From contig JARDZO010000122.1 in assembly GCA_029240815.1 (NCBI GenBank), positions 1-15,254 on the forward strand: a DNA stretch of 15,254 bases, in the 5' to 3' direction. Made by a program: the position numbers and the translations under genes. The number at the start of each line of letters is the position of its first letter. Position 1 is the first letter of the stretch. This document shows positions 3,397 to 5,913 of this stretch, piece by piece. The DNA is from Brevibacillus sp. Its GTDB lineage: Bacteria; Bacillota; Bacilli; Brevibacillales; Brevibacillaceae. The notes under the pieces were generated by a model. It worked only from the letters and a program-made list of their open reading frames with translations, did not search any database and was not told where the DNA came from.

Positions 3397-3987
3397 TCAA
3401 TCTTCTTTCCGTTCCAGACTGGCTGGCGGATGGTAGTAATGACGTCGACAGACACTGCTGTAAGTATCATTTCCAGCAATTTCAATCGTCTCTCCGCTAT
3501 AGACAGGCTTTCCATTTTTAAACTTGAGGATATGAGTCGCCTTTTTATTGCAGTAGACGCAGACGGTTTTAATTTCTTCTACCTTATCTGCCTCACACAG
3601 CAACGCTGCACTTCCCGGGAAAAGCTCGTTTTTAAAGTTTTTCAACAGCCCGTAGACGATCACAGGAATCCCGAGCTCGTCCACAATCGCCACCAGTTGC
3701 TCGACATGATGCTTGCCAATAAACTGAGCTTCATCCACAAGCACACAATGCGGCTTTCGTTCCTCCGCTGCGACGGTTTCATACAGATTGGTTTCTTCTG
3801 TAATCGGATAGGCTTCCCGACTGATCCCCACACGCGAAGCCACTTTCCCCACTCCAAAGCGGTCGTCGACTGCCGGAGTAAACACCATCACTTTTTTTCC
3901 TGATTGCTCGTAGTTATGAGCGACTGTCAAAAGCTGAATCGATTTGGAAGCGTTCATTGCTCCATAGCGAAAGTAAAGTTGTGCCAC
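3397..3987 (-). CDS. tdk: Thymidine kinase
   Basis: This enzyme phosphorylates thymidine to dTMP with ATP (pyrimidine salvage, cytoplasm). I place the start at GTG 3987-3985, giving 196 residues beginning MAQLYFRYGAMN, because an AAGGGAG ribosome site lies 8 bases upstream. A TTG seven codons earlier (4008) keeps the frame open but would put the ribosome site inside the coding region. The P-loop is GAMNASKS at residues 9-16, with Lys15 but Ser14 where Gly is usual. The Walker B/catalytic segment is VLVDEAQF (Asp85, Glu86). Zinc ligands are Cys143, Cys146, Cys180 and His183. The sequence resembles the E. coli enzyme (LYF, AMNA, DDRFG.GKV.SR) more than B. subtilis Tdk. A decayed photolyase fragment ends 28 bases upstream. 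No clear promoter was found. Confidence 0.95.
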   Translation of the reverse strand: MAQLYFRYGAMNASKSIQLLTVAHNYEQSGKKVMVFTPAVDDRFGVGKVASRVGISREAYPITEETNLYETVAAEERKPHCVLVDEAQFIGKHHVEQLVAIVDELGIPVIVYGLLKNFKNELFPGSAALLCEADKVEEIKTVCVYCNKKATHILKFKNGKPVYSGETIEIAGNDTYSSVCRRHYYHPPASLERKED

Positions 3988-4015
3988 GTTTCTATCTCCC
4001 TTTATCAAGAAGTGA

Positions 4016-4290
4016 TTACTCTGTCTTTGTCAGATGACGATCTTTGGCCTCCTGAAATAGAGACAGAGCGAGCTTCCTTCTTTGCGTATGGTCCACGCAC
4101 GGAGGCGGTTTTTTCAGACCGATGACGCATCCCGTTTGCTCTTGTAAACTCTGCGGCATTTCCCACGGTTTATGGATATATTGTAGTGGTACTTACTGCA
4201 GCTCGGGAAGATATTTTTTTACAAAAGCCCCATCCGAGTCAAATGCTATCCATTCACAATAGCGCTATATGAGTAAGTAAAAGATCCGGA
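4016..4290 (-). pseudogene. phrB: C-terminal relic of a DNA photolyase (cryptochrome/photolyase family)
   Basis: No intact gene lies between rpmE and tdk, but one minus-strand frame reads as the end of a photolyase. From 4243 it gives FDSDGAFVKKYLPELQ, a TAA stop (4195-4193), then VPLQYIHKPWEMPQSL, and from 4126 IGLKKPPPCVDHTQRRK with a final TAA at 4018-4016. This matches the conserved tail of CPD photolyases (FDPDG..I..YLPEL..VP..YIH.PW, then YP.PIVDH...R..AL..Y). Further upstream CGG ATC TTT (RIF, 4288-4280) probably corresponds to the conserved RIFNP motif, and a TAG (4267-4265) sits where a Gln codon is expected. The flavin and antenna domains, about 400 residues, are absent: the rpmE terminator begins directly beside the relic. 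There are two in-frame stops, no start codon and no ribosome site, so it should be inactive. Family assignment is from memory of the motifs. Confidence 0.8.
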
Positions 4291-4291
4291 G

Positions 4292-4325
4292 AAAAACAAA
4301 ACCAGGCAGATTGCTCTACCTGGTT
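4292..4325 (-). terminator. Intrinsic terminator of rpmE
   Basis: On the minus strand AACCAGGTAGA (4325-4315) pairs with TCTGCCTGGTT (4310-4300) over 11 bp with one G-T pair. The loop is GCAA, a stabilising GNRA tetraloop, and a T-rich tail with five consecutive T follows (to 4292). It lies 17 bases after the rpmE stop and abuts the photolyase relic. Confidence 0.92.
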
Positions 4326-4342
4326 GCTCCAATCCTTTCCGA

Positions 4343-4543
4343 TTAGGAAAGATTGTATTTGCGTTTGAAACGGTCTACACGGCCGCCAGCGTCAACGAAT
4401 TTTTGTTTACCGGTGAAGAAAGGATGGCAGTTGGAGCAGATCTCCACTTTCAGCGCTTGCTTCACAGAACCGGATTCAAACTCGTTACCGCATGCACATG
4501 TTACCTTCACAGTGTTGTACTGTGGATGAATACCTTGTTTCAT
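4343..4543 (-). CDS. rpmE: Large ribosomal subunit protein bL31 (zinc-binding form)
   Basis: A 66-residue ribosomal protein of the 50S subunit, which contributes to the bridge with the 30S head. The start is ATG 4543-4541 ([10 protein letters not shown]), 7 bases after an AGAGGTG site. The open frame extends 28 codons further upstream, but that part is not L31-like and lies in the leader. It carries the four-cysteine pattern CAC near residues 16-18 and CSNC near 37-40, that is, the zinc-containing C+ form, which in Bacillus is exchanged for a zinc-free paralogue under zinc starvation. The [20 protein letters not shown] segment is typical. It has its own promoter (4607-4635) and terminator (4292-4325), so it is a single-gene unit. 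Confidence 0.97.
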
Positions 4544-4606
4544 CTCAATGCACCTCTTTCCGCCCTGAATCGTTTGCCGAAACAGAGTTATATAAACACA
4601 TAAAAA

Positions 4607-4635
4607 ATAGTAGCACGCCGTCCGCACAAATGCAA
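4607..4635 (-). promoter_or_regulatory. Sigma-A promoter of rpmE
   Basis: The -35 box TTGCAT (4635-4630) and the -10 box TACTAT (4612-4607) are 17 bases apart. Initiation near 4600 gives a leader of about 57 bases. The -35 box lies just after the stop of the radical SAM gene, in the loop of a GCCGTC/GACGGC inverted repeat (4617-4622 and 4642-4647). Confidence 0.7.
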
Positions 4636-4647
4636 CTGGTAGACGGC

Positions 4648-5913
4648 TTAGGCCATGTTTTTCCTGCGTCGCAGCTGCTCCGGAGGAATGTGTGTAAACG
4701 ACCCGATCACAACATCTGGCAGCTCTTCCTGATAGATCTCAATGGCTTGCTTCATCCCAAACACTTCACCCTGAGCCTTCGGAATCATCGACAAGTAGCT
4801 CTCCGGATCAATGTTTAGGTTGCGCATCTGGATCAGTTTGATTCCTGTTCTGCGGATGAAGGTAATCATTGCTTCCATCTCTTCTTCACGGTCAAAAACA
4901 CCCGGGAAACACAAGTAATTGATGGAAGTATATACTCCTTTGGAAGCTGCATACTCGGCAGAACGCGCCACATTTTCCAAGGTGTAGTTGCGCGGTCGAT
5001 AGTACGCGTTATAATGCTCATCGATCGCGCTGATAATACTGACCCGCATCAGATCAAGCCCTGCGTCCACGATCCCTTTGATATGGTCAGTCAGGCCTGC
5101 GTTGGTGTTGATATTGATGTAGCCCATATCCGTCTGCTCCCGTACGCGACGCATCGCCGGAACAATGATGGATGCCATCGTGGAAGGTTCCCCTTCACAG
5201 CCTTGTCCAAAACTGATGATGCTCTCCGGATCCTGCAGGTGATGAAGCATAACTTCCACCAGCTCATCCTCTGTTGGCTTGAAGTTCATCCGCGTCTGCG
5301 GAGACGGGAAGCCGCTGTCTTCGGGCTGCTCGGAAATACAGCCGTAGCAGCCAGCATTACAGGTATAAGAAACCGGCAAGCTTCCTTCCCAGCGATGGAA
5401 GAAGTTATTGGAAGCCGTCAGACATTCATACTCCAGCGCACAATGAGATAGATGGTTCAAAATCCGGTTCTGCGGAAACTGCTCCAACGTTTTCTCCACG
5501 CGCTGACGTAGCTCGTCCATAGGGAAGTTGAGTGGATCCCATTTATAGATGTCGTCACTCGCCCGTCCCGCTACCCAGAAACTTCCATCCTTCCAAACAA
5601 CTGCGGAATAACCGAAAAGAGGCAGCTTGCTATCCTTGTTTGATTTCACATATCCAGGAAGCAGCAACCGCGTAATTCCTTGAGGAACAAGTGCTCCCAC
5701 CGCCGTGCAACCGTCCAGCTTTACCATTTCACCCGTATCCGGGTCCATCCCGATTGGTACGGTATCTGGCAAGCTGACCAAGGTTGCTCCTTCCGGCAGC
5801 GGAATCAGCTCTTCCTCCAGAATTTCAGTCAATATATCACCGTTACGTGCCACCGACAGCAAGCCGGGGTGGTCGTACACATTACCTTTTTCATCTGCGT
5901 ACACTAAATACAT
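4648..5913 (-). CDS. Uncharacterised radical SAM protein with a beta-rich N-terminal domain
   Basis: A 421-residue soluble protein that I cannot assign to a named function. Residues 1-130 are an N-terminal region rich in predicted beta strands (with [23 protein letters not shown] near 99-121). The radical SAM core starts near 180: [11 protein letters not shown] carries the [4Fe-4S] cysteines Cys185, Cys189 and Cys192 in the canonical CX3CX2C spacing. GQGCEGEPS (237-244) fits the SAM-contacting GGEP motif, and NINTNAG (268-273) and RVSIISAI (290-297) are typical barrel strands. Additional cysteines occur at 69, 158, 164, 239 and 335, but I see no clear SPASM or second-cluster signature. Such enzymes cleave SAM to a 5'-deoxyadenosyl radical; the substrate here is unknown. 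The start is ATG 5913-5911 after GTGAGG. It has its own sigma-A promoter and no obvious partner gene nearby. Confidence 0.85.

Follow-up and report, generated by a model that had tools for sequence, protein, structure and literature searches.

The interval between rpmE and tdk in a 15,254-nucleotide stretch of Brevibacillus DNA (contig JARDZO010000122.1, hereafter the window) contains what is identified with certainty, from its sequence, as a real relic of a class I DNA photolyase gene (phr). The best reading is that the Brevibacillus tdk promoter probably lies inside the 3' end of phr and is carried by this relic, and that the promoter would shield the phr 3' end from deletion. It appears less likely that the relic is mere debris than that a regulatory element of tdk persists in it. 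The features concerned are as follows.

3397..3987, minus strand: tdk (thymidine kinase), an open reading frame with an assumed GTG start; the gene downstream, which the proposed promoter would serve
4016..4243, minus strand: phr relic, the last 75 codons plus stop with one internal stop, identified by translation, Pfam, nhmmer and blast
4180..4185, minus strand: candidate -10 of the tdk promoter, TACAAT, matching TATAAT at 5/6 positions, 192 nt before the tdk start
4193..4195, minus strand: in-frame TAA within the relic, in the spacer of the candidate promoter
4204..4209, minus strand: candidate -35 of the tdk promoter, TTCCCG, conserved in position with the -10 and matching TTGACA at 3/6 positions
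4244..4291, minus strand: stretch between the terminator tail and the relic, with no phr homology detected, resembling the corresponding sequence of genome G014
4300..4325, minus strand: terminator-like hairpin after rpmE
4343..4543, minus strand: rpmE (ribosomal protein L31), assigned from its open reading frame, tblastn to relatives and the L31 leader; upstream neighbour

The rpmE-tdk interval of the window is 358 bp, and the window Tdk is 95% identical to that of B. centrosporus over 189 residues. Translated on the minus strand from 4291, the sequence gives FDSDGAFVKKYLPELQ, a stop, VPLQYIHKPWEMPQ...VDHTQRRKLALSLFQEAKDRHLTKTE and a final stop. The initial annotation had recognized the C-terminal tail of a photolyase in this frame, and the assignment was borne out: the relic matches Pfam FAD_binding_7 (PF03441) with E=2.6e-16 and 60.1 bits (cut-off 27), its top match among solved structures of cryptochromes and photolyases has E=7.1e-14, these two values exclude chance, and blastx and nhmmer agree. 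Profile positions 138-202 of 203 are all that the relic retains of PF03441. An nhmmer profile of the phr genes that are intact in 10 Brevibacillus genomes places the start of the relic at 4244 (profile 1230-1444, 159.8 bits); blastp and blastx place it at the codons for FD, base 4243. It is 91% identical across 75 amino acids to the intact protein P0003. Judged by what is left, the relic is not a working enzyme, as about 84% of the 485-codon gene is gone (close to the 85% first estimated), including the N-terminal DNA_photolyase domain and the full FAD pocket that a working enzyme requires, and the remainder is interrupted by a stop.

Two in-frame stops had been attributed to the relic. The TAA at 4195-4193 does lie within it and is followed by 58 stop-free codons, as claimed, but the TAG at 4267-4265 lies outside and was rejected as part of phr, because homology by nhmmer and blast begins downstream, near 4243 and not at 4290. 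The earlier placement of the relic right at the rpmE terminator (4290) was accordingly revised, with about 47 bases between; phr homology was sought in 4290-4244 with the nhmmer profile and blast and none was detected, and the 'RIF' motif match reported upstream falls in these bases. A supposed CAG to TAG substitution was likewise not upheld, since the relic's stop is TAA where B. centrosporus (G001) has the His codon CAT. The downstream limit was correctly placed 28 bases before tdk (phr stop 4018-4016, tdk start 3987). An RNA element inside the relic was rejected: over 3900-4700 the sole Rfam listing is L31-Firmicutes, a ribosomal protein leader that precedes rpmE (4587-4554, minus strand, 41.9 bits, E=3.4e-07).

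The same interval was compared, as had been suggested, in the 26 Brevibacillus genomes returned by a genus search, all of which contain tdk, giving 27 intervals with the window. Intact phr occupies the rpmE-tdk gap in 10 of these genomes and is broken or undetected in 16; the intact orthologues carry both PF00875 and PF03441, and protein-level pieces of phr lie between rpmE and tdk in five further genomes. Where phr is intact the interval measures 1569-1593 bp, and in the remaining genomes 84-1150 bp. Nine of the ten intact genes have 483-485 codons; in the tenth (G022; loci L122 and L135) phr meets no stop before tdk and one open frame of 700 codons spans both, possibly because photolyase and thymidine kinase are fused or because phr lacks a stop and is read on into tdk. 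A second photolyase of phr's family was sought in the 26 relatives and rejected, with no match away from the rpmE-tdk locus at E<=0.001. Extra sequence of some tens of bases was also seen in the gaps of G015 (L150), G019 (L141) and G038 (L186), with an inverted-repeat look by eye and ends in similar, AAGCCRAGTTTTTCT-like letters; it may represent a terminator or else a small mobile repeat.

An ancestral photolyase directly before tdk had been proposed, and agrees with the ten intact genes at this place and with phr before tdk in the outgroup genome G028. The alternative offered with it, an insertion of phr later removed by deletion, is not needed and was ruled out on the same outgroup. In alignments of 11 genes (10,661 columns) the genome nearest to the window is G014 (88.4%), followed by B. 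centrosporus G001 (86.5%). On the resulting tree, midpoint-rooted for drawing and with the true root not fixed, intact genomes are sister to relic or loss genomes at three places: G003 beside eight intact genomes, G006 and G017 beside intact G002, and G023 and G027 beside intact G022. No intact phr occurs among the genomes compared in the clade of G001, G013, G014 and the window, or in a further group of eight genomes. The two phr pieces of G001 are 99% and 97% identical to intact P0006, and the G027 relic is 91% identical to intact P0004. Provided it was never regained, phr would thus have been lost at least five times, sometimes recently. In G001 (L128) a frame-changing deletion of about 147 codons splits the gene, perhaps a very recent, strain-specific loss or an assembly error.

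The candidate promoter was searched for in the 27 intervals as the 31-bp pattern TTCCCG-N18-TACAATA, which occurs exactly once in the window and in 0 of 200 shuffles. The stretch is kept in 21 of the 27 intervals, 11 of which have a broken phr. Eighteen copies are exact, in the 10 intact and 8 relic intervals, and three are altered (GTTCCG in G004 and G008; TTCACG and TAAAAT in G018). In five intervals the phr profile detects only 57-79 bp, each time around the stretch: G014 (1245-1323, 41.6 bits), G004 (1245-1308, 18.1 bits), G009 (1253-1322, 15.2 bits), G008 (1254-1310, 12.4 bits) and G015 (1256-1322, 11.4 bits), where the best score in 3400 shuffled intervals was 4.0 bits. The ten relics that the profile detects share segment 1256-1308. 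The weakest member is G018, in which the profile finds nothing and the anchor score of 11/13 was reached by 11 of 2000 shuffles. For the retained segments, a random-placement product of 6e-6 was obtained, a post hoc value for a pattern found after looking, with placement not strictly uniform and any bias to keep the phr 3' end ignored.

The rival that survives best, though it is unlikely, is that dead phr is being removed by random deletions that leave its 3' end for now, those reaching the tdk ribosome site being selected against, and that the stretch survives by chance. The longer relics (window, G001, G003, G006) do retain nearly the whole phr 3' end, some relics are young, as the G001 pieces illustrate, and six intervals (G013, G017, G019, G020, G023 and G024) have lost the stretch, among them the counter-case G017, which keeps a 16-bp scrap of phr from downstream of it. 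Neutral erosion of this kind fits less well with G004, G008, G009 and G015, which show the stretch with no phr end detected nearer tdk, or with G014, which by eye additionally retains about 27 bp of the phr end and so was trimmed to either side of the stretch. Against it also stands the finding that 13 of the 18 listed pairs of relics have a higher similarity across the 31 bp than across fourfold sites, with P<0.05 (window-G004, 23/31 vs 0.41; G014-G015, 24/31 vs 0.43; G009-G015, 22/31 vs 0.51), although the pairs are not independent, the anchor hexamers inflate similarity in the stretch, and the other five fail (G004-G015, 19/31 vs 0.53; G004-G008, 29/31 vs 0.86; and G018 with G004, G009 and G015).

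Constraint on the stretch as DNA was also evident in intact genes. Three lineages (G002, G022 and G012) were compared at the degenerate codons that encode the same amino acid in all of them: the 10 such codons in the blocks VKKYLP and PLQY are all identical, against 74 of 297 overall. In permutations within amino-acid classes, 23 of 5000 equalled 10/10 in any 15-codon window and 1 of 5000 at this place. A second phr stretch, near codon 349, ties for top codon identity in a separate pairwise 13-codon scan, so the promoter stretch is not the only odd place in phr. The Leu-Gln pair, which CTACAA encodes here, occurs in 6 of the 120 photolyases listed out of 3904 matched, and these six are the closest to the query. 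Codon invariance and survival in remnants show the stretch to be conserved as DNA, independently of the protein, with 6 of the 27 intervals lacking it. Two bases after the -10, all ten intact genes have T, and G at this position would make a stop; in the 11 relics, G is found in the six most reduced and T in the other five, a pattern requiring at least two changes on the tree. A review describes G at -5 as stabilizing open complexes in E. coli and T. aquaticus sigma-A as preferring GGG after the -10 (PMC4496709).

The two hexamers of the candidate promoter are separated by a spacer of 18, the -35 is poor, and a consensus scan of the window does not list the site; the scan lists another match in the relic, TTGACT-18-AAAAAT at 4242-4213, with 0.9 expected by chance. 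Plain consensus scoring covered the last 230 nt, with the G022 site outside the scanned part. The site is the sole top in the window and in G002, G003, G009, G010, G011, G012, G015, G016, G018, G021 and G026; in G004 the stretch is the only site among the three listed. It is tied by others in G007, G025, G014 and G027 and beaten in G001, G006 and G008, and these seven genomes lower the confidence in the promoter reading. In G009 and G015, interpreting CATACAATA as a sporulation-type sigma-E element was considered and set aside, as no matching -35 was seen by eye and the other sequences are without the CA. In the six intervals lacking the stretch no convincing substitute promoter was seen, indicating that the stretch is dispensable; the hairpin after rpmE is still visible in all six species, so tdk there would be read through from upstream or from an unrecognized promoter.

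The same observations bear on the possibility that the stretch is a regulator binding site or another DNA element of tdk and not a core promoter. Two conserved blocks 18 bp apart would suit such an element, as would the poor -35, the conservation of TTCCCG about as firm as that of TACAAT, and the equal promoter scores of other sites in several genomes. The block spacing and TACAAT nevertheless fit a sigma-A promoter, and the G018 copy, if homologous, has drifted to TTCACG/TAAAAT, 9/12 to consensus; this alternative is considered improbable.

Seven outgroup loci were examined (G028, G029, G030, G031, G005, G038 and G039), the matches G032-G037 (Tdk 27-30% identical) being outside the comparison. 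Four of the seven (G028-G031) have TTGGCG-17-TATGAT with TG, 44-58 nt before tdk, which appears a better candidate tdk promoter than the Brevibacillus stretch; in G005 a TATGAT is paired with a poor -35, and other or weaker matches occur in G038 and G039. In G028, of the same family, a phr frame of 500 codons without TACAAT lies directly upstream of tdk with a 50-bp spacer; here (L179, 2981-3009) the final codons of phr contain the candidate -35, and the -10 follows immediately on the phr stop, so that phr and the tdk promoter appear to overlap there too, possibly as a half-way stage. The phr-tdk spacer in nine of the ten intact Brevibacillus genomes is 28-32 bp, which we infer is too short for a promoter and leader.

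The age of the decay in the window is uncertain. It had been called recent, and differences between the relic and G001 do favor third codon positions (8/4/20 by position), suggesting that the relic remained coding until late. Upstream of the relic, however, about 47 bp (4291-4244, minus strand) resembles the sequence of G014 (1 of 2000 shuffles as good), and the big deletion may therefore predate the window-G014 split. An old shared deletion and a late coding state pull in different directions. That phr was an ordinary gene recently disrupted, with nothing functional left in the window's genome, would fit the third-position excess and the intact copies in close kin, but is improbable given the likeness to G014 and the conserved stretch in other species, which it leaves unexplained.

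Under the preferred reading, that of a tdk promoter within phr, ancestors had phr between rpmE and tdk, as synteny indicates, and TTCCCG-N18-TACAATA would have served as the tdk promoter from within the coding sequence, some 55 codons short of the phr stop. As phr was lost repeatedly (if not regained), the site would have had to be spared by any deletion after which it still drove tdk, so that the promoter piece would often outlive phr. In the window, the remaining 228 bp would act as the tdk promoter and a 5' leader of roughly 185 nt. A fuller account, to which we give slightly less than an even chance, is that the promoter arose in its neighbor's coding sequence, changed the protein (Leu-Gln replacing the usual residues), froze codons and governed decay; deletions would have carved phr down to the promoter, which would later have gained a base that the reading frame forbade, the G two bases after the -10.

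Ten intact copies and graded, partly independent losses in one genus make this locus a natural test of embedded regulatory sites, namely of whether such sites inside a dying gene decide what remains of it. The death of a bacterial gene is generally portrayed as random erosion. The locus also cautions that a 'pseudogene fragment' lying upstream of a gene may be that gene's promoter, and that what the next gene needs can dictate an enzyme's synonymous codons and even its amino acids. For UV repair, no whole photolyase gene of phr's family was found in 16 of the 26 Brevibacillus genomes.

Literature searches, judged from the search results, returned nothing on this relic, on the order rpmE-phr-tdk or on bacterial promoters outliving their host gene. 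Each part is of a known kind; what is new, as far as searched, is a promoter outliving its host gene in several losses. Within the class I photolyase/cryptochrome family (PF00875 plus PF03441), the relic corresponds to the C-terminal end of the FAD-binding domain and departs from family members in its extensive deletion and internal stop. Promoters of the sigma-A type are known to lie within the 3' end of the preceding gene, and the stretch resembles them in its TACAAT, in the hexamer 18 bp upstream and in the short spacer to the next gene; unlike them, it has a weak -35 and a host gene that died repeatedly while the proposed promoter remains. A further comparison is gtsB, where synonymous changes create or adjust internal promoters (PMC6692132). 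In gtsB as in phr, coding sequence appears constrained by the transcription of downstream genes; the gtsB case is experimental, whereas the phr case is comparative and draws on survival after gene death.
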